DNA of 64,000 bases from Catalimonadaceae bacterium JC749 (GTDB lineage: Bacteria; Bacteroidota; Bacteroidia; Cytophagales; Cyclobacteriaceae). Shown here one piece after another: positions 10,152 to 48,187 of this stretch (its first letter is position 1; each line of letters begins with the position of its first letter). Location: contig JAJNNC010000014.1 of NCBI GenBank assembly GCA_021730635.1, forward strand, positions 62,001 through 126,000, read 5' to 3'. The notes below the pieces were generated by a model, which was not told where the DNA came from, made no database searches, and saw only the letters and a list, made by a program, of their open reading frames with translations. The position numbers and the translations under genes were made by a program.

Positions 10152-10520
10152 TGTTATAATCTCAACGTCGTGCAGTTCATGCCGAAAGCAAACCTGATTT
10201 TCTGATGAAAGGAAAAGTCCCTTTGATCTGCTCAGGTTCCGGCGCTACCTCCCTAGAACTATCAGTTCATGTCAGGAGGCAGGCCGGGTCTGAGGTGAAA
10301 ACGGGTTTGCTTTTGGGACAATGTGACGATAAACAAAACGCCTCAACCCATAGCCATTGCGGTTATTCACTGAAAAACCCTCGCGCCTCTCCCTTCAACT
10401 ATTGCTGCCAACAACCGTGAAGTTTCATGGACAAGGAGGCGTGGCTTCATTTGGATAACCCCGCCCGCCTTACCAAAAAAAACGATACGATCAGTAGCCG
10501 CTGACAGCTTTGTTTTATGC
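10152..10520. other. Intergenic region before gntR, about 370 bp
   Basis: A 71-codon frame at 10205-10420 has no family features and is rejected as a gene. A perfect 9-bp inverted pair, AAGCAAACC at 10187-10195 and its complement near 10305-10313, lies too far apart to act as a simple terminator. The control elements of gntR follow and are listed separately. Confidence 0.4.
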
Positions 10521-10528
10521 TAACTTTG
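10521..10528 (+). promoter_or_regulatory. Possible -7 element of the gntR promoter (TAACTTTG)
   Basis: The octamer TAACTTTG matches the Bacteroidota -7 consensus TAnnTTTG. It lies 52 bp before the TTG start of gntR and about 17 bp before the repeated operator-like motif, so a repressor bound there would block early transcription. No good TTTG -33 box is present at the expected distance, which lowers confidence. Confidence 0.35.
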
Positions 10529-10544
10529 CTTTATCTTTAACATC

Positions 10545-10568
10545 TATGTATGAATATATGAACATACA
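10545..10568 (+). promoter_or_regulatory. PUL1 operator-like motif, copy A (before gntR)
   Basis: The 24-bp site begins with two near-identical tandem octamers, TATGAATA and TATGAACA, preceded by TATG. It also has outer inverted hexamers TGTATG (10547-10552) and CATACA (10563-10568). It agrees with copy C at 20 of 24 positions and with copy B at 16. It ends 12 bp before the gntR start, which fits autoregulation by the encoded GntR protein. The binding protein is inferred, not seen. Confidence 0.65.
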
Positions 10569-10579
10569 GCCATAAAGCG

Positions 10580-11311
10580 TTGAAGAAATTTGAGATAGAA
10601 CATAACAGCGCCTTACCCCTGCACATTCAGGTAGAAAATCTGCTGCGTCAGATGATTGAAGACCCTGCCTATCAGGCTGGTAAATTGCTACCCAGGGAGG
10701 TGGATCTGGCCAAGCGGTTTGGCATCTCCAGGAATACGGTACGGCAGGCGACCAATAAACTTGTCAATGAGAATCTGCTGATCCGTAAGAAAGGCGTAGG
10801 CACGAGAGTGTCTAAAAAGACAGTTTCTACCAAACTGGACCATTGGTTTAGCTTTAGCCAGGAAATGCATGAAAAGGGGATGGAATTTACTAATTATGAC
10901 ATCAAATCAGGTTGGGTCAATGCCAACAGTGAGGTGGCAGAGAAGTTGCAGATTCCCAAAGGAAAGAAAATATTCCGGCTGGAGCGGCTCAGGGGATTGG
11001 ACAAAGGACCGATCGTGCACTTCATTTCTTATTTTCATCCTCGCATCGGGCTCACAGGCAACGAAGATTTCACCAGACATCTATATGAAATCCTGGAACA
11101 GGATTATGCGACAATACCTTCCACCTCAAAGGAAGAGATCAATGCCATCATCGCTGATAAGACATTGGCCAAGAAACTGAATATGAAGCCGGGAGAGCCT
11201 ATTCTGTTCAGAAAGCGGATCGTGTGTGACCCCGGAGACAGACCCATAGAGTACAATGTAGGTTACTACAGGGCAGACCGCTTCACTTATTTGATTGACA
11301 TCAAACGATAA
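10580..11311 (+). CDS. GntR-family transcriptional regulator with UTRA sensor domain
   Basis: The 243-residue protein starts at a TTG (no in-frame ATG or GTG lies between it and an upstream stop at 10559). Residues about 8-75 form the GntR winged helix (LPLHIQVENLLRQMI, the recognition part FGISRNTVRQATNKLVNE, and a wing RKKGVGTRV). Residues about 95-240 form a UTRA effector domain, with FRLERLRGLDKGPIVHFISYF and a closing EYNVGYYRADRFTYLIDI. UTRA domains of the HutC/FarR group bind sugars, sugar phosphates or other small molecules. It precedes GH92 and the susC run in the same direction. Three copies of one DNA motif, before gntR itself, the GH92 gene and susC, make it the probable local repressor or activator of PUL1. 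Confidence 0.92.
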   Translation: MKKFEIEHNSALPLHIQVENLLRQMIEDPAYQAGKLLPREVDLAKRFGISRNTVRQATNKLVNENLLIRKKGVGTRVSKKTVSTKLDHWFSFSQEMHEKGMEFTNYDIKSGWVNANSEVAEKLQIPKGKKIFRLERLRGLDKGPIVHFISYFHPRIGLTGNEDFTRHLYEILEQDYATIPSTSKEEINAIIADKTLAKKLNMKPGEPILFRKRIVCDPGDRPIEYNVGYYRADRFTYLIDIKR

Positions 11312-11352
11312 TTTTTTTGCCTCACAGAATATTACTATATTGAGCAATTAAT

Positions 11353-11376
11353 TATGTTCAAACATATGGACAAATT
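11353..11376 (+). promoter_or_regulatory. PUL1 operator-like motif, copy B (before the GH92 gene)
   Basis: This 24-bp site matches copy C at 20 of 24 positions; the shared core is ACATATGrACAAATT. It lies 110 bp before the preferred GH92 start and 41 bp after the gntR stop, in the position expected of an operator for a separate GH92 transcript. Confidence 0.6.
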
Positions 11377-11485
11377 GAGTGGAGTAGCCTAGAACAGTGG
11401 AAAGGGTACTTGTTGCTTGCTGATACCCTTAGGCTGTAGAAATCTAATGCAAATCATGACAACCCAAAACTTACTCTTCCATACC

Positions 11486-14215
11486 ATGACCTCATTAGCG
11501 GTAAACAACAGAAAAACTACCTTTTTATCAATCCTTTTCTTTTTCATGATCTTTGGGTCAGCCCTGGCTACACCGGATAACATTGCCCCTAACGCTACAG
11601 TCACTGCCTCCACTTCCCTGAATGATGATTTCTCCCCTGAGCATGTGGTAGATGGGATCATAGGCGTGCCTTCTATAGGAGAATGGGCTTGTGAGGGGGA
11701 TACCACAGACTGGGGATATATTCGATTTCCCTGGATACAACTGACCTGGGACCAGCCTCAGCAAATAAACCGGATCATTTTATATGACAGACCCTCTGCC
11801 AAAGATCACATAGCCGGAGGAAGATTGGAGTTCAGTGATGGCACAATGCTATGGGTCAATGAAATACCCAATGACGGCACAGCGAAATCCATTGATTTTG
11901 CCACCAAAACGGTGGAATGGGTGAAATTTGTGACTACCGATGGAAAGGGCAAAGACCTTGGTTTTTCCGAAATTGAAGTTTTTCCCAGTCCGGAGCAATA
12001 CCAGGATTATGTCTCCTGGGTAGACCCCTATATTGAAACCAACAGGGGGCGGTATATCTTTTTTATCACCGGATCCCGTCCGTTTGGTATGGTAAGCGCC
12101 GCCCCGCTCACCAGAAATAAGAACCAGAATGGGGGAGGCTATAATTATAATGAAGATGAAATACTGGGGTTTGAACAGATTCATTCCTGGATGATCTCCG
12201 GAATAGAGGTCATGCCCACTCCCGCTACGGTTGATCCCACCCAAGGTCAACAGGGGTGGAAGTCAAAGTTTTCCCATGAGGGGGAAATAGTGCAGCCGGG
12301 TTACCATCGGGTGTTCCTGCAGGATCATGACACCTGGGTGGAATTTACCACGACAGAAAGAGTCAGCTTCTACAGGTTTCGTTTTACCAAAGCGATGCAG
12401 GCCCAGGTGTTGACCAATCTGGGAGGATATGTGAGCAACAGCACCATGACCGATGCGGTGGTAAAAAAGGTGAGCGACCAGGCGTTGGAAGGTTCTTTCA
12501 GTTCTGTAGACCGCTATTGGGGTGGCCCGAAAGAAGTGAAAATATTTTTTGTGGCGCAGTTTGACAAGCCTTATGAATCCTTACATGGTTGGAAGGGAAA
12601 GGAAATCAGAGAAAACATTGATGAAATTTCCGGCGATAGCGCAGGGGTCGCTGCCAGATATGAGGTGAAGGCGGGTGATGTGGTACAAATGAAGATTGCC
12701 ATTTCTTATACCAGCATAGAAAATGCCCGGAAAAATTTACAAGCCGAATGTACCACCTGGGATTTTGATACCGTCAGGCAGGACTCGAGAAAGGTGTGGA
12801 ACGATTGGCTCAGCAAGATCAAGGTAGAAGGCGGTACCCATGCCCAGACTATTAAGTTCTATACCGATCTGTGGCATGTGTTGCTGGGTCGGCAGAAGAT
12901 TAATGATGTTTCCGGAGATTATCCTGACAGGACGACAGGCACCCGGGAAGGCACCTTTACAGAGGCTGTGTTTAAGGTTAAAACACTCCCTAAAGATCAG
13001 GAGGGCAACGTGAAATTCAACATGTATAATTCTGATGCCTGGTGGCTGACCCAATGGAACCTGAACATTCTCTGGGGACTGGCCTGGCCCGAGGTGATGG
13101 ATGAAATGTCGTCTTCTATGGTACAATACGCCGTCAACGGCTATTTGCTGCCTAGAGGCCCCTGTGGCGGTGGCTACTCCTATATCATGACGGGTTGTCC
13201 GGCCACAAACCTGGTGGTCAGCACTTTCCAGAAAGGTCTTTTGACGAAGATAGATGAAAAGCTGGCGTACGAAAAGTTAAAGCAAAACCACCTGCCAGGG
13301 GGTATGCTGGGCGATAGCGCCGATATTGACTTTTATAGTCAAAATGGGTATTGGCCTGGCAACGCGGGTATCACGGTAGAGGCTGCGTTTCAGGATTTTG
13401 CTTTGTCACAAATGGCCTTGCGTTTGGGTAAAAAGAAAGACTACCGCTTCTTTTCTGATCGCTCAAAAGGTTGGAAAAAACTATTTGAAGAGGATCAGAA
13501 GCTGCTTTTTCCCAAAGACCCTCAGGGTACGTTTATGCATCATAATCCCTTGTCCGGCGCCGGATGGGTAGAGGCGAATGCCTGGCAGGCGACCTGGTCC
13601 GTATCCCATGACATAGCCGCCCTGGCCGAGATGATGGGAGGTTCGGATACCCTTTGTGCCAAACTGAATTATGCTTTTGAGCAAGCTGAATCCAGCGACT
13701 TTGTGTTTGCCTACAACGATGGATATGTGAGCTATGCCAACCAGCCAGGATGCTCCAACGCCCACGTCTTCAACCATGCAGGCAAACCCTGGCTCACCCA
13801 GTATTGGGTGCGAAAAGTGAAGGAAAAGGCTTATGGGGGTATCACGCCAGACCTTGGCTATGGGGGGCATGATGAGGACCAGGGGCAAATGGGCGGTGTC
13901 AGTGCCCTCATGGCGATAGGTTTGTTCAGCCTACAGGGCAACGTTTCTGCCGAACCTACCTATGAGATTACCAGTCCGGTCTTTGACAAGATCACCATAG
14001 AACTTGATCCTGAGTACTATTCCGGAAAACAGTTTACCATTACCACACACCACAACGACAAGGAAAACCTGTATATCCAAAAGGCAACCCTCAATAGTGA
14101 GCCGCTGGACCGTTTTTGGTTTGCTCATGAAACCTATGCAAAAGGCGGTACACTGGAAATATGGCTGGGCCCTGAACCCAACAAACAGTGGGGAACCAAG
14201 GCCTCAGAAGATTAG
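11486..14215 (+). CDS. GH92 family alpha-mannosidase with N-terminal F5/8-type-C-like domain
   Basis: GH92 enzymes are calcium-dependent exo-alpha-mannosidases acting on mannoside side chains or N-glycan-like mannan. From ATG 11486 the product has 909 residues: signal peptide (to ...FGSALA), a discoidin-like domain (about 25-165; 'ATVTASTSLNDDFSPEHVVDG' type start, LTWDQPQQINRIILYDR) and the two-domain GH92 body beginning YVSWVDPYIETNRGR. Hallmarks are EANAWQATWSVSHD (putative acid Glu codon at 13571) and GGHDEDQGQMGG (Asp codons at 13871 and 13877), which correspond to the conserved acid and base regions. Two other in-frame ATGs (11447, 11456) and a TTG (11417) are possible starts but lengthen the n-region of the signal. 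It lies between gntR and susC and defines the substrate type of PUL1. Confidence 0.92.
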   Translation: MTSLAVNNRKTTFLSILFFFMIFGSALATPDNIAPNATVTASTSLNDDFSPEHVVDGIIGVPSIGEWACEGDTTDWGYIRFPWIQLTWDQPQQINRIILYDRPSAKDHIAGGRLEFSDGTMLWVNEIPNDGTAKSIDFATKTVEWVKFVTTDGKGKDLGFSEIEVFPSPEQYQDYVSWVDPYIETNRGRYIFFITGSRPFGMVSAAPLTRNKNQNGGGYNYNEDEILGFEQIHSWMISGIEVMPTPATVDPTQGQQGWKSKFSHEGEIVQPGYHRVFLQDHDTWVEFTTTERVSFYRFRFTKAMQAQVLTNLGGYVSNSTMTDAVVKKVSDQALEGSFSSVDRYWGGPKEVKIFFVAQFDKPYESLHGWKGKEIRENIDEISGDSAGVAARYEVKAGDVVQMKIAISYTSIENARKNLQAECTTWDFDTVRQDSRKVWNDWLSKIKVEGGTHAQTIKFYTDLWHVLLGRQKINDVSGDYPDRTTGTREGTFTEAVFKVKTLPKDQEGNVKFNMYNSDAWWLTQWNLNILWGLAWPEVMDEMSSSMVQYAVNGYLLPRGPCGGGYSYIMTGCPATNLVVSTFQKGLLTKIDEKLAYEKLKQNHLPGGMLGDSADIDFYSQNGYWPGNAGITVEAAFQDFALSQMALRLGKKKDYRFFSDRSKGWKKLFEEDQKLLFPKDPQGTFMHHNPLSGAGWVEANAWQATWSVSHDIAALAEMMGGSDTLCAKLNYAFEQAESSDFVFAYNDGYVSYANQPGCSNAHVFNHAGKPWLTQYWVRKVKEKAYGGITPDLGYGGHDEDQGQMGGVSALMAIGLFSLQGNVSAEPTYEITSPVFDKITIELDPEYYSGKQFTITTHHNDKENLYIQKATLNSEPLDRFWFAHETYAKGGTLEIWLGPEPNKQWGTKASED

Positions 14216-14275
14216 CCTCTGGTGATGAAAAAAGTGGAGGAATAGTTTTTTTATTCAATTATTTTTATCAATTTT

Positions 14276-14299
14276 AATTTGTTCATATGTTCATACATA
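14276..14299 (-). promoter_or_regulatory. PUL1 operator-like motif, copy C (before susC)
   Basis: Read on the minus strand, this copy contains the tandem octamer TATGAACA TATGAACA in full, preceded by TATG. It matches copies A and B at 20 of 24 positions each. It lies in the 188-bp spacer between the GH92 gene and susC, 105 bp before the susC start, so the long operon has its own control site. Confidence 0.65.
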
Positions 14300-14403: not shown

Positions 14404-17400
14404 ATGAAACAACCATTCTACTTGATTATCCTGGGTACCCTTTTCTTTTTTCAAGACTCATTCGCAAAGGATATACCCCGTTTCATGCCTGCGTTCTTTC
14501 AGGATAAATCCATATCCGGAAAGGTGACTTCTATGGAGGGAGAGGCCTTACCTGGCGTAAACATTATTGTAAAAGGCACCACCGCAGGCACGGTCACCGA
14601 CGTCAACGGTAGCTATAGAATTGCGGTACCGGATCAGGACGCTGTATTGGTGTTTTCCTATGTCGGTTATTTATCGGAAGAAGTGGCCGTCAATGATCAA
14701 TCGGTTATCGATGTGGTACTGGCTCCCAACCTTGAATCTTTGTCCGAAGTGGTCGTCATTGGCTATGGTACGGCCAAAAAGTCTGACCTGACCGGAGCGG
14801 TGACGTCCGTAAAGGCGGAAGAATTGGAAGCCATTCCTGTCACCTCTTTTGATCAGGCACTGCAGGGGAGAGCCGCCGGCGTGCAGGTCGTACAATCTAC
14901 GGGAGCTCCGGGAGGAGGGACCAATATTCGTATCCGGGGAACCAGCTCGGTGAATGCTAGCAGTGAGCCCTTGTATGTCATCGATGGGATGCTGGTCAAC
15001 AGTAATGTAGGGGAAATGTCCATAGGCGGCAGAGGACCGGCCATCAGCCCCCTGGCTTCTATCAACCCAAGCGATATTGCCTCTATCGAAATATTAAAGG
15101 ACGCTTCTGCCACTGCTATCTATGGTTCAAGAGGAGCCAATGGGGTTGTACTGATCACCACGAAGAGAGGACAAGCCGGAGAAGGTAAAGTAAGTTTTGA
15201 GGCCTATTATGGCTTGCAGGAAGCTGCTAACCAGCTCGATCTGTTAAATGCAGAGCAATTTGCCCAGCTGGTAAACGAGGCAAATATCAACGCGGGGTTG
15301 AATCCTGCCTATGTCAACCCTTCCACTTTAGGGGAAGGAACCGATTGGCAGGAAGAACTTCTGCGGGTGGCGCCTCAGGCCAATTATCAGCTTTCCTTAA
15401 CAGGAGGTAACGAAAAAACCCGGTATGCCCTCACAGGCGGGTATTTTATGCAGGATGGAATTGTGATAGGTTCGGATTTCGACAGGTACTCCTTCAGAAC
15501 CAATCTGGACACAGACGTGAATGACAAGCTAACGGTTGGCACCCAGCTTTCCTACAACAGACTGTCTTCCAATGGTGTATTAACCGGGCCCGGTCAGATC
15601 ATTCCCGGGGTGATCACCAGTGCCCTGCAATTCAACCCCATTCTTCCGGTGTATGACCCCAGAGAAGTACTAGGGTATACTTATGAGCATATCCCCAGGA
15701 TTGGTATCGGCAACCCGATTGCTGAAGCCAGGGAGTACCTGGCGGAAACCAATACTTCCAGAATACTGGGCAATGTGTATGCGCAATATGATATCCTGGA
15801 AGGATTGACTTTCAGAAGTAGTTTTGGCATCGACGGTTTATCTACCAAATCCAATACCTTTGGACCGAACCATCTGAAAAGGACACAAAATAGTTTTGGA
15901 GAAGCCAGTGTCAGCACCCTTCAGGCCCTGAGCTGGCAGAATACCAATACGCTTACCTTCCAAAAAAATATCAATGAGCATCATCACTTCGATGCGGTGG
16001 TGGGGTTTGAAATGCAGCAATTCAACAACGAATCGCTGAATACGCTGGCCTTTGATTTTCCTGATTCCAGGACAGGCTGGCACAATATCAGTGCGGCAGA
16101 GAATCCTCAGGAAGCTTCCAACGGAGAATTGGAATGGAGCCTGGTTTCTTATCTGGGACGGATCAATTATTCGTTTTATGATAAATATCTGCTGACCCTC
16201 TCCGGCCGGATAGATGGTTCCTCAAAATTCGCCAAAGGTAATAAATACGGCTTTTTCCCTTCAGGAGCCTTTGCCTGGAGAGTTTCCGACGAACCTTTTA
16301 TGCAGGACATCGGCTTTATTTATCATTTGAAAGTAAGAGCCAGCTATGGTTTGATCGGTAACCAGTCTATCGGTCCTTATGGATCTCTGGCACTGATCAC
16401 TCCGTTTGGAGAAGGTGTTTTTAACAGCGCTACCGGCAGTACCGTGTTTTTCGGGCGCGAGCCCCTGTCTTATCCCAACCAGGATCTGCAATGGGAATCT
16501 ACCCAGCAGGCCAATCTGGGTATAGACTTTTCTGTCCTGGAAGGAAGAGTGGCGCTCACGGCCGATCTTTATCATAAGAAAACCTCAGACCTGTTGCTGC
16601 AAACGCCTATCCCTCTGACCTCCGGCTTTCAAAATACCCTGCTCAATGTAGGCAATGTGGAAAACCGGGGCATTGACCTGTCTGTCAACTCTGTGAATAC
16701 CAATGGAGCTGTTTCCTGGAGTACTTCTCTTAATTTTTCTGTCAACAGAAATAAAATTACAAACCTGGCCAGAGAAGAGGATATCAATCTGCAGTTCGGC
16801 GGAAACCTGTTGAGAGAAGGAGAACCCATCGGAACCTTTTATGGCTATGTGTTCGATGGCATTTACCAAACCGACGAAGAAGCCGATGCCAGTCCGGTTC
16901 TGGCAGGACAAAGTCCTTCAGCCGGTGACAGAAAATACAGGGACATCAGCGGACCGGAGGGCACACCTGATGGGGTCGTCAATGATTTTGACAGAACCAT
17001 TATTGGTTCTGCTCAGCCTAACTTCGTCTGGGGTCTCAACAATGATGTTGCCTACAAAAACTTTTCGTTGAACTTTTTCTTTCAGGGATCGCAGGGCAAT
17101 GAAATGGTTAACATGAATCTGATCACGCTGGAAAATGTCAATGGACAGCAAAATGTACGGGAAGAGGTCTGGGTCAATAGATGGACACCTGACAATCCCA
17201 GCAATGAATATGCCCGTCCACTGGCTACAGCCAGCGACAATGTATTTTCTTCCCGGTTTGTGGAAGATGCCTCTTACATCCGGTTAAGAAGTATCACTTT
17301 GAGTTATGATCTGGCCCCCGCCATGCTGGAAAGGATAGGTATCGAAAACCTCAGAGTCTATACCAGCGCTTCCAATCTTCTGACCTGGACAGACTATAGC

Positions 17401-17514
17401 GGTTACGATCCGGAAGGCAATGCCTATGGCGCTACCACCAATATTGTAGGCGTAGATGATGGGAACTATCCGCAAACCAGGACTTACTTATTAGGCATCA
17501 AACTGGGATTTTAA
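14404..17514 (+). CDS. SusC-like TonB-dependent outer-membrane transporter (PUL1)
   Basis: SusC proteins import oligosaccharides across the outer membrane, driven by TonB. The product from ATG 14404 has 1036 residues: signal peptide (MKQPFYLIILGTLFFFQDSFA), carboxypeptidase-regulatory-like domain (about 40-115; ISGKVTSMEGEALPGVNI), the SusC signature VVVIGYGTAKKSDLTGAV, a plug domain (about 125-240; PLYVIDGM, SIEILKDASATAIYGSRGANGV) and a 22-strand-type barrel to the C-terminal LLGIKLGF. An ATG 45 bp upstream (14359) would only add residues before the signal. It is followed after 18 bp by susD, the standard pair. The partner GH92 suggests mannose-rich oligosaccharides as cargo. Confidence 0.96.
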   Translation: MKQPFYLIILGTLFFFQDSFAKDIPRFMPAFFQDKSISGKVTSMEGEALPGVNIIVKGTTAGTVTDVNGSYRIAVPDQDAVLVFSYVGYLSEEVAVNDQSVIDVVLAPNLESLSEVVVIGYGTAKKSDLTGAVTSVKAEELEAIPVTSFDQALQGRAAGVQVVQSTGAPGGGTNIRIRGTSSVNASSEPLYVIDGMLVNSNVGEMSIGGRGPAISPLASINPSDIASIEILKDASATAIYGSRGANGVVLITTKRGQAGEGKVSFEAYYGLQEAANQLDLLNAEQFAQLVNEANINAGLNPAYVNPSTLGEGTDWQEELLRVAPQANYQLSLTGGNEKTRYALTGGYFMQDGIVIGSDFDRYSFRTNLDTDVNDKLTVGTQLSYNRLSSNGVLTGPGQIIPGVITSALQFNPILPVYDPREVLGYTYEHIPRIGIGNPIAEAREYLAETNTSRILGNVYAQYDILEGLTFRSSFGIDGLSTKSNTFGPNHLKRTQNSFGEASVSTLQALSWQNTNTLTFQKNINEHHHFDAVVGFEMQQFNNESLNTLAFDFPDSRTGWHNISAAENPQEASNGELEWSLVSYLGRINYSFYDKYLLTLSGRIDGSSKFAKGNKYGFFPSGAFAWRVSDEPFMQDIGFIYHLKVRASYGLIGNQSIGPYGSLALITPFGEGVFNSATGSTVFFGREPLSYPNQDLQWESTQQANLGIDFSVLEGRVALTADLYHKKTSDLLLQTPIPLTSGFQNTLLNVGNVENRGIDLSVNSVNTNGAVSWSTSLNFSVNRNKITNLAREEDINLQFGGNLLREGEPIGTFYGYVFDGIYQTDEEADASPVLAGQSPSAGDRKYRDISGPEGTPDGVVNDFDRTIIGSAQPNFVWGLNNDVAYKNFSLNFFFQGSQGNEMVNMNLITLENVNGQQNVREEVWVNRWTPDNPSNEYARPLATASDNVFSSRFVEDASYIRLRSITLSYDLAPAMLERIGIENLRVYTSASNLLTWTDYSGYDPEGNAYGATTNIVGVDDGNYPQTRTYLLGIKLGF

Positions 17515-17532
17515 TTACAAATGACGACAACC

Positions 17533-19017
17533 ATGAAAAAATTACTCAAAGGCTCAATGCCCGGTTTCCTGATGGTATGCCTGGGTATGCTGATGGCTTC
17601 CTGCAGCGATTTTCTGGAGGAAAACCCACAAAACAGTGTAGCACAAAATAATTTTTATACAACCGAGCAGGATGCGCTATCGGCCGTGAATGCCATCTAT
17701 GCCTATTTAGGCTCTTATAATCTGGACGGAACCGGCCCTTTTCCCGGCAATACGGCGGGTGTATATCACAGCACCTTTTGGGTCACGGTAGGACTTGCCT
17801 CTGATAATCTGATGAATAATCAGGCAGGTGCCATACAGAATGACCAACTCGCTACCTTTTCCTATAACGCTGAAAATGGCAATTTCCTGGAAATCTGGCG
17901 GGTACACTACAAAGCGATCTATCTGGCTAACATTGCCATTGAAAGGATTCCGGGCATTACCATGGACGAAACATTGAAGAACAGACTGGTTAATGAGGCT
18001 AAATTCCTGAGAGGGCTACTGTATTTTAACCTGGTGAGATTGTTTGGCAGTATTCCATTGCTGCTGGAGGAAAATGCACCCCTGAACCCGGAAGCAGCCG
18101 CAGAAGAAGCCATATATACCCAGATTATCAACGACCTGACCGATGCCGAAGCCTTGCCGCCGGATGGAAGCATAGAAGAGGGAAGAGCCACCCGGGGCGC
18201 TGCCCAATCGTTACTGGCCCTGGTTCATCTCACCTTGAAAGATTATGAAAATGCTGCTGCCAAAGCTTTATCCGTAATTGAGTCAGGCAGTTATGCCCTG
18301 TGGGATAATTTTGGAGATGTCTTCAAGCTGTCCAGCCGGGGAGGAAAAGAGGCCATCTTCTCCATCGGTTTCGGGGATGCCGGTGGGGCTATTTCTTTTT
18401 GGGAAGTAGGCCAGTTCAATGTAAGACTGTTGCCGAGAGAACTGTCAACGGAAAGAGCCAATGTGAGCAATACGCAGGGATGGCAAACAGCTACGCAAGA
18501 CCTGTATGAGTCGTATGCTCCTACGGATGAAAGAAGAGCTGTCACTTTTATGACAGAGTTTCCTGACGATGAAGGCAATGTGATCACCCTGGATAAAATC
18601 TATATTAAAAAATACTGGGATGAACCGGCAGACCCTACTGCGGGAGGTTCTGTCAATGATTTTCCGGTCATACGGTATGCCGAAGTGCTGTTGATTTATG
18701 CCGAAGCCCAGGCCGCACTGGGTAATTTTGACGTGGCCAATGATTATTTGAACCTGGTAAGAAACCGGGCCAATCTGGAGAATGTCAGCATCAATGAGAT
18801 ATCAGCCTTTAATGAGGCTATCTTAATGGAAAGGAGAAAAGAATTTGTGGCAGAAGGTAAAAGATGGTTTGATCTGGTAAGAATGGAAAAGTTAGATGAG
18901 AAAGTACACCAGGCCAAAGATGAGGCGTATGAAACACCGATTCCAACCCTGGGACCTGACTACTATCAGTTTCCTATTCCTCAGGAGGAAAAAGATGTAA
19001 ACGAAAATCTGCAGTAG
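17533..19017 (+). CDS. SusD-like surface glycan-binding lipoprotein (PUL1)
   Basis: SusD proteins sit as a lid on SusC and capture glycans at the cell surface. The 494-residue product (from ATG 17533; an ATG at 17521 is also possible) has a lipoprotein signal ending LMASC, followed by SDFLEENPQN, the typical mature start. TPR-like helices follow, with EAKFLRGLLYFNLVRLFGSIPLL around residue 155 and the C-terminal signature AEVLLIYAEAQAALGNFDVANDYLNLVRNRA (about 375-405) and ERRKEFVAEGKRWFDLVRM. It is tightly linked to susC and to the lipoprotein gene that starts 51 bp later. Confidence 0.95.
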   Translation: MKKLLKGSMPGFLMVCLGMLMASCSDFLEENPQNSVAQNNFYTTEQDALSAVNAIYAYLGSYNLDGTGPFPGNTAGVYHSTFWVTVGLASDNLMNNQAGAIQNDQLATFSYNAENGNFLEIWRVHYKAIYLANIAIERIPGITMDETLKNRLVNEAKFLRGLLYFNLVRLFGSIPLLLEENAPLNPEAAAEEAIYTQIINDLTDAEALPPDGSIEEGRATRGAAQSLLALVHLTLKDYENAAAKALSVIESGSYALWDNFGDVFKLSSRGGKEAIFSIGFGDAGGAISFWEVGQFNVRLLPRELSTERANVSNTQGWQTATQDLYESYAPTDERRAVTFMTEFPDDEGNVITLDKIYIKKYWDEPADPTAGGSVNDFPVIRYAEVLLIYAEAQAALGNFDVANDYLNLVRNRANLENVSINEISAFNEAILMERRKEFVAEGKRWFDLVRMEKLDEKVHQAKDEAYETPIPTLGPDYYQFPIPQEEKDVNENLQ

Positions 19018-19068
19018 AGGATGTTATTGACAGACTTATCCAGTAAGAACCTATTTAATACCAAGATA

Positions 19069-19911
19069 ATGAAACGAAGAAAAGGATTGCTTAACAATAC
19101 ACTGATCTTCCTCTTAATGCTAGCCTTCCTGGGATGCGAGCCGGAAGAACAAGGCCCGGAAGATTTTTATGATCACGATAACTTTACCGTAAGCCTTTCT
19201 GCCGACAGAAGTATGGGTAAAGGACAATACAGCCGGAGAGCGGAATCGGGCGATGAAGTCAATGTGGATGTCAACATTCAATCTGCCACTCCCTTAACAG
19301 AACTTGCCATCACCAAAACCATCAATCTTACGGTGGATTCTACTTTTGGCAACAATGGTACGCTGCTCGTAAATGCATCAGGAAACGCACTGGATTATGA
19401 CTTCCACTATGTCGCCGATACTACGGATGTGGACCAGTTGGTAGGCTTTACCTTTGAAGCCACCAACGCAGCGGGAGAAACGGAAGTCAGCGATCTGACG
19501 CTCGCTGTTACCTTGTCGCCCAGAGACAATCTGCCGAGGAAGCGTTGGGCCCTGACCTCTATTCTGCATGTGAATAATAACAACGAAGAAGTCATCAAGG
19601 AATGTGAAAAAGACAATGCTATGTTGCTCAATGCAGACAGCACCGTCGTCATGGATTATGGCGCAGATACGGGAGCGGGAGACTGTGTCTTCGATGGATT
19701 TAAAGTGTATGACCAGTGGTATCTGACAGAAGATGAAAAACAGTTTGTGCTGGTCTATCATGGTTTGTTTGACCCTACCACCACGGTTGAATCCTATGAA
19801 GTGAAAACCCTGACAACGGAAGAACTGGGTATAGAGCTGACCATAGATTTGACCGTGCTGGGCCTGGGTATAGAAACTTTCCTGTATACGTATCAAGCCA
19901 CCCCTCGGTGA
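19069..19911 (+). CDS. SusE/SGBP-position surface lipoprotein (PUL1)
   Basis: The product from ATG 19069 has 280 residues. A lipoprotein signal ends LAFLGC and is followed by EPEEQGPED, an acidic start like the surface-export signals of Bacteroidota lipoproteins. Residues about 35-150 look like an Ig/PKD-type beta sandwich (repeated Thr/Val strands); residues about 155-280 resemble a lipocalin-like beta barrel (KRWALTSILHVNN, ADSTVVMDYGADTG, DQWYLTEDEKQFVLVYHG). The place right after susD is where PULs encode an extra glycan-binding protein (SusE/F type). Sequence of such proteins is poorly conserved, so binding is inferred from position and architecture only. Confidence 0.75.
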   Translation: MKRRKGLLNNTLIFLLMLAFLGCEPEEQGPEDFYDHDNFTVSLSADRSMGKGQYSRRAESGDEVNVDVNIQSATPLTELAITKTINLTVDSTFGNNGTLLVNASGNALDYDFHYVADTTDVDQLVGFTFEATNAAGETEVSDLTLAVTLSPRDNLPRKRWALTSILHVNNNNEEVIKECEKDNAMLLNADSTVVMDYGADTGAGDCVFDGFKVYDQWYLTEDEKQFVLVYHGLFDPTTTVESYEVKTLTTEELGIELTIDLTVLGLGIETFLYTYQATPR

Positions 19912-19952: not shown

Positions 19953-20891
19953 ATGGATATAGCGATCGGCATTGACCTGGGAGGCACCCGAACAAAAATT
20001 GGGTTGGTGAAAGACGATCACCTGATAGCCCATGCGAAAATCAAGGCTGTGACAGAAAGTAACCTGTTAGATCATTTGGGGGAAGTAGCAGAGATTGTAG
20101 ACCAGCTGATGGCGCAGGAAGGGCTTCATACAAATGATTTGTCGGGCGTCGGATTGGCCTTTCCGGGGATTGTTGACAGCCAACGGATGAAGATCCTGTC
20201 CAGATATGTCAAGTATACCGATGCGCATGCGCTGGACCTCAAACAGTGGGCGAAAGATCGATGGAAGATACCGCTGGTGCTTGAAAATGATGCCCGGGCA
20301 GCACTACTGGGAGAATGGCAGTATGGCGCTGGAAAAGGCTCAGACAACCTGGTGCTGGTAACCTTGGGGACCGGTGTGGGTACTGCCGTCCTGATAGAGG
20401 GTAAACTGTTGAGAGGAAAGCACTTTATGGCGGGAAACCTGGGGGGCCATATGACCATCAACCTGCATGGGTCAGTATGCAACTGCGGGAACATCGGTTG
20501 CCTGGAATCGGAAGCCTCCACCTGGGTGCTTCCCCATCAAATAGAAAATGCGGCAGGCTATGCACAAAGCCAGCTAGCGGGTGAAAAAGAGGTGAACTTT
20601 CACCGGATCTTTGCCCTGGCCCAGCAGGGCGATGACCTGGCGGTGCACATCCGAGATCACTGTTTAAAGGCATGGTCGCTGGGCATCATCAGCCTCATTC
20701 ATGCCTACGACCCCGAAAAGCTGGTCATAGGAGGGGGCATCATGCAAAGCAAAGACGACATTCTTCCTGTCATTCAGACCATGGTTCGTAAACATGCCTG
20801 GGCCACAGAGGAAAACATAGCGATAGTACCGGCTGTTCAGGTGGAATTCGCCGGCATATTAGGGGTGAGTTATTTAGTAAATCAACATTAG
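19953..20891 (+). CDS. ROK-family sugar kinase (candidate mannokinase, PUL1)
   Basis: ROK kinases phosphorylate free hexoses or hexosamines in the cytoplasm using ATP. This 312-residue protein has the N-terminal phosphate loop IGIDLGGTRTKIGLV, the second ATP-binding segment LVTLGTGVGTAVLIEGKLL, a GGHMTI metal/substrate His, and the complete ROK zinc signature CNCGNIGCLE (C176, C178, C183). It lies 1 bp before the mannose-6-phosphate isomerase gene and downstream of a GH92 mannosidase, so mannose is the most likely substrate; glucose, fructose or N-acetyl hexosamines cannot be excluded from sequence. It lacks the N-terminal helix-turn-helix of ROK repressors. Confidence 0.92.
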   Translation: MDIAIGIDLGGTRTKIGLVKDDHLIAHAKIKAVTESNLLDHLGEVAEIVDQLMAQEGLHTNDLSGVGLAFPGIVDSQRMKILSRYVKYTDAHALDLKQWAKDRWKIPLVLENDARAALLGEWQYGAGKGSDNLVLVTLGTGVGTAVLIEGKLLRGKHFMAGNLGGHMTINLHGSVCNCGNIGCLESEASTWVLPHQIENAAGYAQSQLAGEKEVNFHRIFALAQQGDDLAVHIRDHCLKAWSLGIISLIHAYDPEKLVIGGGIMQSKDDILPVIQTMVRKHAWATEENIAIVPAVQVEFAGILGVSYLVNQH

Positions 20892-20892
20892 A

Positions 20893-22659
20893 ATGGAAAA
20901 AACGATAGTATCAAATTACGACAAATTCCCTGTCATTGCCGTAGAAGACAAGCAGGATCACTGTTGGGCGGGTTGGGAGGAAATTTGTCGCCAGCTGAAT
21001 CTTGTCATCAACCAGATCCATAAAGAAAAGAAGATCATTGTGATTGACTGCTATCAGGGCGTAGATCATACAGAACTGGAAGCGGCTCTGAGAAAAGGAC
21101 TACAACATGATCATTTTGTGAACGCCAAGGCCGGATTCAAATCAGAAGACGAAATCACCCGGATGGTTTATCCTGATGTGACGGATGACAGGGTCTTTGG
21201 CTATATGACGCGCCTCACAATCCAGGATTATTTTGATGAAGGCAATCTCCAAAGTCTTAGAAATCAAATCGCACAGCTGGCCAAGGGAGTGATCCTTGTG
21301 TATGGAGAAGGGGCGGCTTACGTAGCCGGACAATGGGATTTGCTGGTCTATGCCGACATGGCACGATGGGAGATACAGCAACGGATGAGACGCAATGAGG
21401 TAGGCAATCTGGGACTGCACAATGTGCATACAGAATTTGCACTCCAATATAAACAGTGTTACTTCGTGGACTGGCGGGTGTGTGACAAACACAAAAGAAC
21501 CCTGATGAACCGTTGGGATTATCTGTTGGATACCAATCAACCCGGTCATCCTAACATGGTGACAGGCAAAGCCTTGCAGAAAGGATTAGCCATAGCCTCA
21601 CAAAGACCTTTCAGAGTAGTGCCCTTCTTCGATCCGGGACCCTGGGGTGGGCAGTGGATGAAAGAAGTCTGTGACCTGGACAGGTCTGCGGAGAATTATG
21701 CCTGGGGATTTGACTGTGTGCCTGAAGAAAACAGTATGCTCCTGGGGTTTGGTGCTGTTGTCATAGAAATCCCTTCCATCAATCTGGTTTTTACCCATCC
21801 GGAGGCATTGTTGGGCCAAAAGGTTCACGCGCAGTTTGGAGAAGAATTTCCGATCCGTTTCGACTTTCTGGATACCATGGAGGGCGGTAATCTGAGCTTG
21901 CAGGTGCACCCTACCCAGGCCTACATCAAAGAAAAATTCGGCATGGACTATACCCAGGATGAAAGCTATTATTTTTTAGATGCCAAAGCGGGGGCCCATG
22001 TCTATCTGGGGTTGAACGAAAACATCAATCCTGAGAAAATGATTGAGGATCTGAAAGCGGCCCAAAAGGGAGGACCTTCCTTTCAGGCAGACCAATATGT
22101 GCAAAAATGGGACGTAAAAAAGCACGACCATGTTCATATCCCAGCCGGTACGGTACACTGTTCGGGTAAAGACAGTATGGTGCTAGAGATCAGCGCTACC
22201 CCTTATATTTTTACTTTCAAATTATGGGATTGGGGAAGACTGGGGCTGGATGGCAAACCCCGCCCTATCAATATTGAACATGGGGAAAAGGTCATCCAAT
22301 GGGACAGGACTAAATCATGGACGAGAGAAAATATTATCAATGGCGTCAGAAAAATTGCGGAAGGCGATGGCTGGATAGAAGAAAAAACAGGACTGCATGA
22401 ATCTCAATTTATTGAAACAAGGAGGCATTGGTTTACTGGCAAAGTCACCCATCATACCCAGGGCGGTGTCAATGTCTTAAATCTTGTGGAAGGGAGGGAA
22501 GTCATCGTAGAAAGCCCGACCCATGCTTTCGAACCTTTCGTCGTTCATTATGCCGAAACCTTTATTGTGCCTGCTGCGGTAGGGGCATACACCATCCGGC
22601 CTTATGGCGAAGCGGAAGGTTCCCAATGTGCCACCATCAAAGCATTTGTCAGGGTATAA
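20893..22659 (+). CDS. manA: Class I mannose-6-phosphate isomerase with extra N-terminal kinase-like domain
   Basis: The C-terminal part (about residues 236-588) is a type I phosphomannose isomerase, which interconverts mannose-6-phosphate and fructose-6-phosphate with a zinc ion. Visible metal-site motifs are LQVHPTQ (Gln and His) and HIPAGTVH (His), with a Glu in DESYYFLD; DWGRLGLDGKPR is also typical. The first ~235 residues are not part of a normal isomerase: they alternate helices and strands (KKIIVIDCYQGVD, KGVILVYGEGAAYV, LLVYADMARWEIQQRMR) and recall the nucleoside/uridine-kinase fold, but no Walker A lysine loop is seen. Bacterial ManA proteins are usually 300-400 residues, so 588 is long. 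Start ATG is 1 bp after the ROK stop, indicating translational coupling and a joint kinase-isomerase step. Confidence 0.88.
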   Translation: MEKTIVSNYDKFPVIAVEDKQDHCWAGWEEICRQLNLVINQIHKEKKIIVIDCYQGVDHTELEAALRKGLQHDHFVNAKAGFKSEDEITRMVYPDVTDDRVFGYMTRLTIQDYFDEGNLQSLRNQIAQLAKGVILVYGEGAAYVAGQWDLLVYADMARWEIQQRMRRNEVGNLGLHNVHTEFALQYKQCYFVDWRVCDKHKRTLMNRWDYLLDTNQPGHPNMVTGKALQKGLAIASQRPFRVVPFFDPGPWGGQWMKEVCDLDRSAENYAWGFDCVPEENSMLLGFGAVVIEIPSINLVFTHPEALLGQKVHAQFGEEFPIRFDFLDTMEGGNLSLQVHPTQAYIKEKFGMDYTQDESYYFLDAKAGAHVYLGLNENINPEKMIEDLKAAQKGGPSFQADQYVQKWDVKKHDHVHIPAGTVHCSGKDSMVLEISATPYIFTFKLWDWGRLGLDGKPRPINIEHGEKVIQWDRTKSWTRENIINGVRKIAEGDGWIEEKTGLHESQFIETRRHWFTGKVTHHTQGGVNVLNLVEGREVIVESPTHAFEPFVVHYAETFIVPAAVGAYTIRPYGEAEGSQCATIKAFVRV

Positions 22660-22672
22660 ACAGAACAAAAAT

Positions 22673-24067
22673 ATGCAAACAGAATCCTTGAATCAGGCTT
22701 TAGCCCAGAATAAAGATACTTCAGCTACCAACATACGATATGTCTACCTGGTCTCTATTGTAGCTGCGGTGGGTGGTCTTCTCTTTGGCTACGATACGGC
22801 CGTCATCGCAGGTGCCATTGGTTTTTTACAGACAAAATTTGAATTAACGGCAGCCATGACCGGCTGGGCGGTATCCAGCGCCATCGTCGGATGCACCATA
22901 GGGGCCATGTCGGCCGGCTACCTGAGCGACCGCTTTGGCAGGAAGAAAATATTATTATTAACAGCCGTGCTTTTTGGGGTGTCGGCCATTGGCTCTGCCA
23001 TCCCCCAAAATCTTACCCAGTTTGCCATCGCTCGTTTTGTCGGAGGTTTGGGCGTCGGGGCAGCTTCAATGCTTTCACCCATGTACATTTCTGAAATTGC
23101 GCCCGCCGAAATCAGGGGACGGCTGGTGACCCTCTATCAGTTAGCTATCGTGGTTGGGATTCTCCTGATTTATTTTATCAATATGCTCATCGCCGATATG
23201 GGAGACGAAGCCTGGAATATAGCCTTTGGGTGGCGCTATATGTTCGGCTCAGAAGCCATTCCTTCCCTGCTGTTTTTCGCTTTGTTATTTACAGTGCCTG
23301 AGAGCCCCCGTTGGCTGGCGAAAAAAGGGAAAGAGGCGGAAGCTCTTTCCGTATTGATCAGCGTTAATGGGGTAGTAAAAGCCAAAGAGGTACTACAGGA
23401 AATTAAAAAAGTATTGCAGGTGGAAGCCGGTACGATCAAAGAGTTGTTTGAACCAGGCTTGAGAACGGCCATGCTGGTGGGAGTAGTCCTGGCCCTTTTC
23501 TCCCAGATTACGGGTATCAATGCGATCATGTATTATGCCCCTGAAATTTTTAAGAGTGTGGGCTTTGGTACAGATTCTGCCCTGCTGCAAACTGTTTTTA
23601 TCGGTTCTGTCAATGTGATTTTCACCTTCGTAGCCATCTGGCTTATCGACAAGGCAGGCCGCAAGACCTTGCTGTTGTATGGCGTGGGGGGGATGGTCCT
23701 TTGCCTGTTGGGACTGGGGGCTGCCTTTTATTTTGAATTTACCCAGGGGCCCTGGATTCTCCTCTTCATTCTGGGGTATATTGCCAGCTTTGCTTCCTCT
23801 TTAGGGCCTATTCCCTGGGTGTTGATTTCAGAGATCTTTCCTACCAAAACCCGTGGGGTTGCCATGTCAGTGGCGGTATTCGTTCTTTGGATAGGCGTGT
23901 ATCTCATATCCCAGTTTTTTCCTATGTTACTGGAAAGCCTGGGTGGTGCTTTTACGTTTTGGTTGTTCATGGGTAACGCCATCATCTTGTTCTTTTTCAC
24001 GCTGAAAGTGATTCCGGAAACGAAAGGCAAATCGCTGGAAGAAATAGAGTTAAGCTGGAAACATTAA
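22673..24067 (+). CDS. MFS sugar porter (PUL1)
   Basis: The product from ATG 22673 has 464 residues and 12 predicted membrane helices. Sugar-porter signatures are all present: VGGLLFGYDTAVIAG in helix 1, DRFGRKK in the loop between helices 2 and 3, PESPRWLAKKGK after helix 6, QITGINAIMYYAPEIF in helix 7, DKAGRKTLLLYG in the next conserved loop, and PETKGKSLEEIE at the C-terminus. It resembles xylose/galactose/glucose:proton symporters and would carry the released monosaccharide across the inner membrane. The frame runs upstream to 22604 inside the isomerase gene, but the ATG 13 bp after that gene's stop is the sensible start. Confidence 0.93.
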   Translation: MQTESLNQALAQNKDTSATNIRYVYLVSIVAAVGGLLFGYDTAVIAGAIGFLQTKFELTAAMTGWAVSSAIVGCTIGAMSAGYLSDRFGRKKILLLTAVLFGVSAIGSAIPQNLTQFAIARFVGGLGVGAASMLSPMYISEIAPAEIRGRLVTLYQLAIVVGILLIYFINMLIADMGDEAWNIAFGWRYMFGSEAIPSLLFFALLFTVPESPRWLAKKGKEAEALSVLISVNGVVKAKEVLQEIKKVLQVEAGTIKELFEPGLRTAMLVGVVLALFSQITGINAIMYYAPEIFKSVGFGTDSALLQTVFIGSVNVIFTFVAIWLIDKAGRKTLLLYGVGGMVLCLLGLGAAFYFEFTQGPWILLFILGYIASFASSLGPIPWVLISEIFPTKTRGVAMSVAVFVLWIGVYLISQFFPMLLESLGGAFTFWLFMGNAIILFFFTLKVIPETKGKSLEEIELSWKH

Positions 24068-24092: not shown

Positions 24093-26066
24093 ATGATGAA
24101 GAAAACCCTGCCATTTCTTTGTTGTATGATGCTGTTGTATACCCTTCCTGCCGTAGCGGAGGTGGAAATGCCCAACATTTTTGGTGATCATATGGTATTG
24201 CAACGAGAGACAGCGATTCCGGTCTGGGGGTGGGCTGGCAAGGGGGAGAAAGTAACGGTAAGCCTTCATCAGACATCGGTATCCACCAGGGCAGATGCAC
24301 AGGGAAAATGGATGGTAAAGTTGCCGGCGATGCCCGCAGGAGGGCCTTTTGTGTTGACCATACAGGGAGACAACCAACGCAGGTTTGAAGATGTATGGGT
24401 AGGCGAGGTGTGGGTGTGCGGCGGACAGTCCAATATGCAATGGACAGTCGCCAATACCAACTACGAAGAAAAAGATACGGCTTTTGTCCAGGCAGCGCCT
24501 GTTCGACTGTTTACGGTGCAAGTGGATATGGATTATATGCCTCAACAAGATATCAAAGGCGGAGCATGGAAAACCCTCAGTCAGGAAAGTTTGCAACATT
24601 TTTCAGCGGTAGCCTATCATTTTGGGAAGTTTCTACATCAGTCGCTTGGGGTACCCATCGGCCTTATCAGCAGCAACCTGGGAGCTACTTCCGTGGAAAC
24701 CTGGATGAGCAATGAAGCACTGCTCCAGTTCCCTCAGTTTAATGCTTGGATCAGTCCTATTGTAGAACGGGGAAAAAGTTTTGCAGAAATCAACGCCGAT
24801 TTTGAAGCCACGAAATCCTTATGGTACCAGCAACATTACTACCAAGGACCCGGTATTGAAGAAGAATGGTTTCGGCCAGAGACAGATGTATCTCAGTGGA
24901 AAACAATGGAGCTGCCCAATACCTGGGAAGATACGGAGCTGAAAGACCATGAGGGCGCTGTTTGGTTCCACACTGCCTTTGACCTGCCGGAAGATTTTAC
25001 ACAGGATACTTTTGACCTTCATCTCAATCAGATAGATGATTATGACATCGCCTGGGTCAATGGACATAAGATAGGGGAGACGTATGGGAAGCATAATCAC
25101 CGCAATTATAGGGTGCCTGCTGCTGTGCTCAAACCCAAGGACAATAGACTGGTCGTGCGTGTGTTTGACATTGGCGGGATAGGAGGCTTTACCACCAATG
25201 CCTTTTGGGGAAACCCCATCCTGTGGGGCGAATGGAAGTACAAAAAAGGACTGGTGATCAAGGCCGGTCAGTTTCCGGCGCCGGTGGTAGTCAATGCATC
25301 CCCATTTTCTACACCCGGTGTATTGTACAATGCGAACATCGCTCCCCTGATGCCTTATGCCATCAAAGGCGTGATCTGGTATCAGGGAGAAGCCAATGTG
25401 GATCGTGCAGATGAATACCGTGCACTTTTTCCGGCCATGATTCGTGATTGGCGTAAACACTGGGGGCAAGGCGATTTCCCGTTTTTATTCGTCCAGTTAG
25501 CCAATTATATGGCAGAGCTGGAGGAACCCGCTGATAGCGAATGGGCAGAACTGAGAGAGGCACAGTCACAGGCACTGGCATTGCCCCATACCGGGATGGC
25601 TGTAACCATCGATGTGGGGGAGGCAGACGACATTCATCCCAAAAATAAGGAAGCTGTGGGCATCCGCTTAGGAAAAGCTGCGTTGAAAGTTGCTTATCAA
25701 CAGGATAAGGTCAGTGCGGGTCCTGCCTATGCTTCCATGCAGATAAAAGAGAACAAAGCGATCATCACCTTCAACCATCAGGGGAGTGGCGTGGTGACTA
25801 CTAATAAATACGGCTATATACGGGGATTTGAAATGGCCGGAGCGGATAAAAAGTTTTACTGGGCGCAGGCTGCTATCCAAGATAATAAGGTGGTGGTATC
25901 CAGTGATCAGGTGAAGGTTCCGGTGGCGGTCAGGTATGCCTGGGCTAATAATCCGGGACCGCTGGATCTATACAACCAGGAAGGCTTACCGGCAGCGCCT
26001 TTCAGAACAGACCACTGGAAAGGGATGACCACCGGAAAGAAATACACCGATATACCACGTTTTTAA
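24093..26066 (+). CDS. Sialate-O-acetylesterase-type (SASA) carbohydrate esterase with inserted jelly-roll domain (PUL1)
   Basis: This exported 657-residue enzyme (signal peptide to about residue 23) has the SGNH-hydrolase layout of the SASA family. The nucleophile is S113 in GGQSNMQW, and D512/H515 in DDIHPKNK complete the triad. Between the two halves sits a domain (about residues 255-385) like the sugar-binding jelly roll of GH2 enzymes (TDVSQWKTMELPNTWED ... WVNGHKIGETYG). The N-terminus (LPNIFGDHMVLQRETAIPVWGWA) is the usual small beta domain. Such enzymes remove O-acetyl groups from glycans; despite the name, many PUL members act on substrates other than sialic acid. It fits as the de-acetylating enzyme of PUL1. 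A paralogue, gene 49847-51811, serves PUL2. Confidence 0.9.
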   Translation: MMKKTLPFLCCMMLLYTLPAVAEVEMPNIFGDHMVLQRETAIPVWGWAGKGEKVTVSLHQTSVSTRADAQGKWMVKLPAMPAGGPFVLTIQGDNQRRFEDVWVGEVWVCGGQSNMQWTVANTNYEEKDTAFVQAAPVRLFTVQVDMDYMPQQDIKGGAWKTLSQESLQHFSAVAYHFGKFLHQSLGVPIGLISSNLGATSVETWMSNEALLQFPQFNAWISPIVERGKSFAEINADFEATKSLWYQQHYYQGPGIEEEWFRPETDVSQWKTMELPNTWEDTELKDHEGAVWFHTAFDLPEDFTQDTFDLHLNQIDDYDIAWVNGHKIGETYGKHNHRNYRVPAAVLKPKDNRLVVRVFDIGGIGGFTTNAFWGNPILWGEWKYKKGLVIKAGQFPAPVVVNASPFSTPGVLYNANIAPLMPYAIKGVIWYQGEANVDRADEYRALFPAMIRDWRKHWGQGDFPFLFVQLANYMAELEEPADSEWAELREAQSQALALPHTGMAVTIDVGEADDIHPKNKEAVGIRLGKAALKVAYQQDKVSAGPAYASMQIKENKAIITFNHQGSGVVTTNKYGYIRGFEMAGADKKFYWAQAAIQDNKVVVSSDQVKVPVAVRYAWANNPGPLDLYNQEGLPAAPFRTDHWKGMTTGKKYTDIPRF

Positions 26067-38274: not shown

Positions 38275-38291
38275 AAAAACCCCTAAGGGGT
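38275..38291 (-). terminator. Terminator overlapping the stop codon of the PUL2 regulator
   Basis: On the minus strand the end of the coding sequence forms ACCCC-TTA-GGGGT followed by TTTTT. The TAG stop (38283-38285) lies inside this short hairpin. The three-base loop is tight, but the GC stem and T-run are as expected for an intrinsic terminator. Confidence 0.5.
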
Positions 38292-40094: not shown

Positions 40095-40134
40095 ATGTAT
40101 ACATAATGCTAATTAAATGATAAATTTTATCATT
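40095..40134. promoter_or_regulatory. Two palindromes directly upstream of PUL2 susC
   Basis: ATGTATACAT (40095-40104) is a perfect 10-bp palindrome. AATGATAAA-T-TTTATCATT (40116-40134) is a perfect 19-bp palindrome ending 34 bp before the susC ATG. The second has the length and symmetry of an operator for a dimeric winged-helix regulator. Confidence 0.5.
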
Positions 40135-40168
40135 GTTTCCTTTACTTAACAACCTAAAACAAATGTCT

Positions 40169-43387: not shown

Positions 43388-43408
43388 CAACCTATGACTT
43401 GTAAAACT

Positions 43409-45169: not shown

Positions 45170-45355
45170 TGGTCACAGGAAAAGTTTTGTAGGATACCCC
45201 GCCCTGTAGCTAGCCTGGTGCATGATCAGGAACCTGAGATATTGGCTTACACACAGATCAAAGTAAGTGCTGCTTGAACAGGTCTGACAATCAAATCTAC
45301 AGGGTGTCTTTCGTCCGGAATCCCATATCATCCGGCTAATTAACCTTGAAATAGT

Positions 45356-45522: not shown

Positions 45523-45573
45523 AAATCAGAAAAATAAGTTTTGTAATTTTTGACTTTTAAAATATTGCGTTTC

Positions 45574-47073: not shown

Positions 47074-47074
47074 A

Positions 47075-48109: not shown

Positions 48110-48187
48110 TGTCTGTTTCTGTTTATTTTTTGATCGAAAAGCTCACCGGAAGCCCTTTCTGTTACCAAAATATTAATTTCCATTAAA

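Follow-up and report, generated by a model that had tools for sequence, protein, structure and literature searches.

Domain structure and proposed operator sites

The DNA considered here is a 64,000-nucleotide window of Catalimonadaceae bacterium JC749 (contig JAJNNC010000014.1, positions 62,001 to 126,000), which carries a polysaccharide utilisation locus (PUL), PUL1, with a gntR gene (10580..11311, + strand). gntR encodes a 243-amino acid one-component regulator composed of an N-terminal GntR winged helix-turn-helix and a C-terminal, chorismate-lyase-like UTRA domain. It is followed on the same strand by the gene of an enzyme of the alpha-mannosidase family GH92 with an N-terminal DUF7402/F5_F8-like domain (11486..14215, with a possible alternative start at 11458), and then by susC, which encodes a TonB-dependent receptor with a plug domain (14404..17514). 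Three similar sites of 24 base pairs (bp) each lie upstream of these units: A ahead of gntR (10545-10568, + strand), B ahead of GH92 (11353-11376, + strand) and C ahead of susC (14276-14299, - strand). It is proposed that A, B and C are operators of the HutC-type GntR/UTRA protein encoded at 10580-11311, which would act as an autoregulated repressor of an alpha-mannoside PUL and probably be released by a mannose-derived sugar phosphate. Binding, repression, effector and substrate are all predictions from sequence, and the reading as a whole is given a probability of about 0.86.

Both domains of the regulator score above cut-off (PF00392, E 7.7e-18; PF07702, E 1.3e-33). This architecture is shared with the HutC-subfamily repressors NagR/YvoA of Bacillus subtilis, which phmmer matched over nearly the full length (E ~1e-24), and DasR of Streptomyces, matched from residue 32 (E ~1e-19). 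The gntR product is the only UTRA regulator found in its own genome. Its start codon is apparently the TTG at 10580, with an in-frame stop at 10559-10561 inside operator A and no in-frame ATG in between.

The sequence-only reading that drew attention to this locus had placed the three 24-bp sites correctly, both in their coordinates and in their positions upstream of gntR, GH92 and susC. Sites A and C agree at 20 of 24 positions as it had stated, as do B and C (A and B at 16 of 24). This exceeds chance, since when the three intergenic stretches were shuffled 300 times with dinucleotides preserved, no pair reached 20/24 and a single shuffle gave a pair of 19/24. With a matrix made from them the three sites score 31.7-35.1 bits, against 11.6 bits for the next best position in the window. 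The same reading took two tandem octamers, TATGAACA, as the core, which is exact for site C alone; A reads TATGAATA-TATGAACA and B reads TTCAAACA-TATGGACA. A scan of the window for the 16-bp tandem (up to three mismatches, 0.76 matches expected) returned A and two overlapping matches in C and missed B, and five of 100 shuffles reached this count of three. That the tandem octamer is by itself so mildly unusual, and that the sites are AT-rich, speaks for chance or low-complexity similarity as their origin, an explanation to which the ortholog comparisons below leave a probability close to nil.

Conservation in orthologous loci

What is conserved is a 14-bp inverted repeat, TATGTWYRWACATA (TATGT-WYRW-ACATA), first seen when the loci of gntR orthologs were scanned. 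The tandem octamer was rejected as the core because orthologous sites retain the inverted repeat while the tandem varies; its tandem look stems from a third half-site that directly repeats the right arm of the palindrome. Operator A (10545..10566, + strand) thus comprises the imperfect palindrome TATGTATGAATATA (10545-10558) and the half-site ACATA (10562-10566), and operator B (11353..11374, + strand) the palindrome TATGTTCAAACATA (11353-11366) and ACAAA (11370-11374). Operator C (14278..14299, - strand), ahead of the susC gene string, comprises TATGTATGAACATA (14286-14299) and ACAAA (14278-14282). The inverted repeat has the GT-N4-AC spacing that is given as the rule for HutC operators in PMC4494728, the HutC set of which included one Bacteroidetes transcription factor.

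The first set of orthologs consisted of 23 Bacteroidota loci out of 25 returned by a gntR search, and a search within the same family found a gntR ortholog at E 1e-30 in 36 of 196 genomes. Removal of 26 duplicate rows at 95% identity left a pooled set of 47 loci including the window, which are not independent because duplicates were removed at that level only. The upstream counts leave aside G047, G049, G110, G112, G145 and G155 and the second copies in G059 and G087, for which no locus was returned. Orthologs occur in Chryseosolibacter, Dyadobacter, Chitinophaga, Olivibacter, Pedobacter, Gramella and Flavobacterium, among others. In the 350 bp ahead of gntR, 27 of the 47 loci have the palindrome with at most one mismatch (17 exact), compared with 0-4 loci for 19 control palindromes of equal composition with rearranged half-sites. 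A held-out set was taken from other families once the motif had been fixed: when 395 genomes across the phylum were searched, 22 had a match at E 1e-40, 21 of them besides the own genome. Of these 21, 17 carry the palindrome with no more than one mismatch, eight of them exactly, whereas no control exceeds 1 of 21. A chance origin of the sites is refuted by the shuffles (0/300), the 47-locus controls and the held-out orthologs, and the four exact 22-bp matches described below, where 0.018 are expected, argue against it as well.

Taken together, the 47 loci (for the window, bases 1-40000) contain 34 exact palindromes and 60 within one mismatch, with controls at no more than 1 and 10, respectively. 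Of these near matches, 58 lie outside the open reading frames of a crude prediction, and the 60 reduce to 50 non-redundant sites at 80% identity, a few overlapping matches within one locus being counted separately. The genes next to the 60 sites include gntR, GH92, susC, genes for transporters of the MFS family, ROK-family kinases, proteins resembling mannose-6-phosphate isomerase (ManA) and DUF4185 proteins, and some that are unannotated. The GH92 and susC sites themselves recur in relatives: three loci in which close homologs of both genes stand side by side (L128, L129 and L130) have a site ahead of each, and a fourth (L123) has the susC site. The susC operator of these four loci, like that of the window, has its third half-site on the end that faces away from susC.

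A third half-site at fixed distance

The third half-site, ACAWA, begins 3 bp beyond the end of the palindrome. At this gap it is matched at 5/5 positions in 25 of 100 flanks and at four or more in 41, compared with 0-2 and 2-13 flanks, respectively, at the 21 other gaps; in the opposite orientation a 5/5 match occurs in 0-3 flanks at any gap. Half of the sites (25 of 50) have a 5/5 third half-site on at least one side. An additional, weaker half-site on one or both sides of GntR-family palindromes, 7-12 nucleotides from the centre, is described in PMC4494728; compared with that account, the half-site reported here lies 10-11 nucleotides from the centre. In two loci (L107:10026-10051 and L057:9779-9796) overlapping or chained half-sites that exceed one palindrome are found upstream of gntR.

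A bolder proposal is that the element is a true three-half-site operator, on which a HutC dimer and a second, overlapping subunit or dimer would switch cooperatively, and that it serves a Bacteroidota-wide one-component mannose regulon. Unlinked genes would have been added to that regulon in this organism, namely one of the GH94 superfamily, an F420_oxidored-like one that precedes RND efflux genes, those of a PSCyt/DUF1501 operon and possibly another susC/susD pair. Taken in its entirety this is tentative and rather improbable.

Sites elsewhere in the genome

The sequence-only reading had confined the proposed regulon to PUL1. In the 8.0-Mb genome there are four exact matches to the 22-bp form that includes the third half-site, TWTGTWYRWACAWANNNACAWA, namely B, C, C23:626416 and C56:276628 (0.018 expected), and three with one mismatch, namely A, C1:946399 and C4:149400 (0.74 expected), of which the latter two may be chance matches. 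When up to two mismatches are allowed the count is 47, against 28 with the pattern reversed, which leaves only the few best matches meaningful. The scan thus yields few sites, those ahead of the PUL1 units being among them, and the two unlinked exact sites suggest that the regulon probably extends beyond PUL1. Together with the ortholog comparison, these results support the suggestion that the local GntR would bind A, B and C and so regulate its own gene, GH92 and susC.

The bare 14-mer is less selective. The 36 gntR-positive genomes hold 48 exact copies, 32 of them within 20 kilobases (kb) of gntR (eight of the 32 from four genomes of one genus), versus 20 for the reversed control; 20 of the 160 gntR-negative genomes were also scanned and hold 13 versus 11. 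Away from gntR the 36 genomes have 16 copies versus 20 reversed, so enrichment of the 14-mer is insufficient as proof of distal targets, the 22-bp form that includes the third half-site being the only one that discriminates genome-wide. These counts bear on the alternative that a different factor, Crp-like or otherwise, binds the repeats and that the local gntR is merely one of its targets. Sites at unlinked genes and ortholog loci that lack a site near gntR would fit such a factor. However, exact sites clearly exceed the reversed control in gntR-positive genomes only, where they cluster within 20 kb of gntR, and GT-N4-AC is the geometry that PMC4494728 gives for HutC regulators, which makes a different factor very unlikely.

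The C23 site lies 32 bp ahead of the first possible start (TTG), and 86 bp ahead of an in-frame ATG, of a gene for a 461-amino acid protein (L031:9471-10853). This protein belongs to the GH94 superfamily (36.5 bits versus a Pfam cut-off of 27) and has a profile match to chitobiose phosphorylase (E 5e-4), with no PDB match in a single-sequence search; invariant stretches include KNTVETD and NGGDW. Homologs were found at 11 loci in 10 of 40 other genomes searched. In seven of the 11 (L133, L134, L136, L138, L140, L141 and L143) gntR, GH92 or ManA-like genes are present too, and one of these seven loci is in G001, a genome without gntR. None of the 11 has a good operator of its own, the best, with two mismatches, being in L141, which also holds gntR. 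The case for including this gene in the regulon is built on the exact site ahead of it and the seven loci shared with mannose genes, and its product may be an enzyme that acts on mannosides with an undescribed specificity.

On C56 only 1 bp separates the site from the start of a 166-amino acid F420_oxidored-domain gene that is followed by RND efflux genes, and no homolog of this gene was found at E 1e-10 in 19 other genomes searched. The surrounding stretch (L032:3727-12401) contains TolC/HlyD/AcrB-type efflux genes after the F420_oxidored-like gene and a divergent gene for a sigma-54 activator. The C1 site is followed by a PSCyt/DUF1501 operon. Among 25 PSCyt-gene loci compared, 22 are from other genomes (the closest 72% identical), and none of these 22 has a site within two mismatches of the 22-mer, nor has either of the two PSCyt paralogs in the own genome. 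A conserved distal regulon is therefore unsupported beyond the GH94-like gene, as the C56 and C1 sites are not kept in the relatives examined. A weak candidate target is marked by C7:178193, which differs from the 22-mer at two positions (14 such matches expected) and lies about 120 bp upstream of a second susC/susD pair. In another genome (G159, contig C100) an exact 22-bp operator (L115:4979-5000) stands in 9.9 kb of fetched sequence that contains no homolog of a PUL1 gene, and marks an unlinked candidate target there.

Gene content of PUL1 and the likely effector

Downstream of susC the + strand carries susD (17521..19017), a gene for a 296-amino acid protein of no Pfam family that adjoins susD in several relatives (19021..19911), and a sugar kinase gene whose product is placed in the ROK family only (19953..20891). 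These are followed by a gene for a 588-amino acid protein with a weak ManA match and no Pfam match (20893..22659), an MFS sugar porter gene (22604..24067) and a gene for a SASA-domain, sialate O-acetylesterase-like protein (24093..26066), a homolog of which lies directly upstream of gntR in L039, L040 and L042. Between 14404 and 30449, susC and the genes after it are never more than 41 bp apart, and operator C may therefore control some 16 kb. Operators B and C are followed by GH92, susC/D, MFS, ROK and ManA-like genes, with the specificities of their products inferred and the ManA match weak. A second PUL in the window (40133-51811) comprises susC, susD, GH32, ROK, MFS and SASA genes. It adjoins a one-component regulator (38286-39395, - strand) in which a GntR winged helix is fused to a LacI-type periplasmic-binding-protein sensor, so that both PULs of the window stand beside a GntR-type regulator.

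According to PMC4333415, sugar phosphates are bound in NagR by Thr90, Arg133, Arg135, Ser165, Ile166 and Tyr167. Arg133, Arg135, Ser165 and Tyr167 align with R136, R138, H167 and Y169 of the regulator described here. Among 68 orthologs R136 is arginine in 66, R138 is arginine in 56 and lysine in 10, and Y169 is tyrosine in all 68, as is Y230, the counterpart of the sugar-contacting Tyr228. The arginine pair and the tyrosine that bind phosphate in NagR are kept, and Glu145 of NagR corresponds to F148, which makes a phosphorylated sugar other than an amino sugar phosphate plausible as effector. Since GH92, a kinase and a ManA-like protein are encoded downstream, mannose 6-phosphate is preferred, and the effector is probably a mannose-derived sugar phosphate.

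It is a serious possibility, if well short of an even chance, that the sites are operators of this GntR and that another sugar or sugar phosphate is sensed, such as an amino sugar phosphate derived from N-glycans or fructose 6-phosphate, the substrate of the PUL then being other than a plain alpha-mannoside. The gene string also has SASA, DUF4185, MR_MLE and SGL genes and, further along, sugar-isomerase-like and 2-hydroxyacid dehydrogenase genes; the kinase is assigned only to ROK, and NagR itself responds to amino sugar phosphates in the account of PMC4333415. Neighbour counts from the 23 loci of the first ortholog set, some of them short, tell both ways: GH92 is found in just four, as are SASA genes (susC or susD in eight, ROK in two), but the commonest partners of gntR are ManA-like genes (18) and MFS porters (17). 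In addition, GH92 and ManA-like genes recur at further sites, and no N-acetylglucosamine-6-phosphate deacetylase or deaminase is among the annotated genes of the window.

Candidate promoter and proposed mechanism

Bacteroidota promoters have the consensus TTTG/TAnnTTTG. A candidate gntR promoter of this type (10509..10539, + strand) consists of TTTG at 10509-10512, a spacer of 19 nucleotides and TAtcTTTA at 10532-10539. Operator A begins 5 bp downstream of it, over the expected transcription start. Six of 35 loci including the window have such a promoter with a -7 box that starts no more than 30 bp upstream of the operator, compared with 0-1 in permuted controls. This placement favours repression by occlusion, on thin evidence; as promoter support is sparse, occlusion is mainly a family-based inference. 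The opposite view, that the sites serve activation by a GntR activator or dual regulator, draws on the unsettled position of B and C relative to promoters. It is unlikely, given that operator A starts 5 bp past a TAnnTTTG-like box and that NagR, a characterised HutC member, is described as a repressor.

On the reading preferred here, a GntR dimer would recognise the 14-bp inverted repeat, and the third half-site ACAWA may strengthen binding or recruit a second subunit. Protein bound at operator A would block transcription of gntR because the operator sits just downstream of the promoter, as the behaviour of the family also suggests, making GntR an autoregulated repressor; the operator ahead of gntR in the window and in the 27 and 17 ortholog loci bears on autoregulation by position only. 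Operators B and C would hold down GH92 and the susC-susD string with its ROK kinase, ManA-like, MFS and SASA genes. When an alpha-mannoside is degraded, mannose would be imported and phosphorylated to a hexose phosphate, most likely mannose 6-phosphate, which would bind the UTRA domain and release the operators. The same GntR probably also binds the unlinked site ahead of the GH94-superfamily gene.

Several observations weigh against this reading. No site within one mismatch lies near gntR in 20 of the 47 and four of the 21 loci, and close relatives, for example several Chitinophaga, are counted repeatedly among the 47. Likewise, four genomes of genus g41 enter the whole-genome tallies, and 12 of the 36 gntR-positive genomes have no exact 14-mer anywhere. 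The other genome of the genus (G001) has no gntR ortholog, its best match being at E 9.6e-4. The promoter fit is confined to the six of 35 loci, with three further matches downstream of the operator start, and inspection by eye gave no convincing promoter at operators B and C. The ManA match reaches 27.7 bits against a curated cut-off of 116.2. Finally, Ser165 (phosphate) and Glu145 (sugar) of NagR are replaced by H167 and F148, and because these two are not conserved the ligand is not readable by homology.

Relation to known systems

The closest precedent is the regulon predicted for ManR (BT2103) of Bacteroides thetaiotaomicron, described in PMC3878776 as a GntR regulator of mannose uptake, conversion of mannose to fructose 6-phosphate, oligo-alpha-mannosidases and SusC/D. 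The likeness, drawn from gene content alone, lies in a one-component regulator of the GntR family and a similar set of genes. The sequence-only reading had called a PUL run by a one-component UTRA regulator less common. That is fair, but a GntR-run alpha-mannoside PUL is not new, since ManR was published as a predicted precedent (PMC3878776). NagR and DasR differ from the present system in that the operator here is TATGTWYRWACATA and the predicted targets are a SusC/SusD and GH92 system; other NagR contact residues than the phosphate-binding arginine pair and tyrosine differ as well.

PULs are usually held to be controlled by SusR, hybrid two-component or sigma/anti-sigma systems. What the locus adds to the known ManR-like kind of switch is, on well-supported sequence grounds, another example with a well-defined predicted operator, and a switch of this mannose-sensing type looks to be found in many related bacteria. 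The fixed third half-site offers a clean case for what extra half-sites do in GntR regulation. The motif may be used to scan other genomes for mannose genes of unknown function, such as the 461-amino acid GH94-like gene. Overall, alpha-mannoside loci outside Bacteroides thereby gain a concrete and testable predicted operator for control by a one-component switch.

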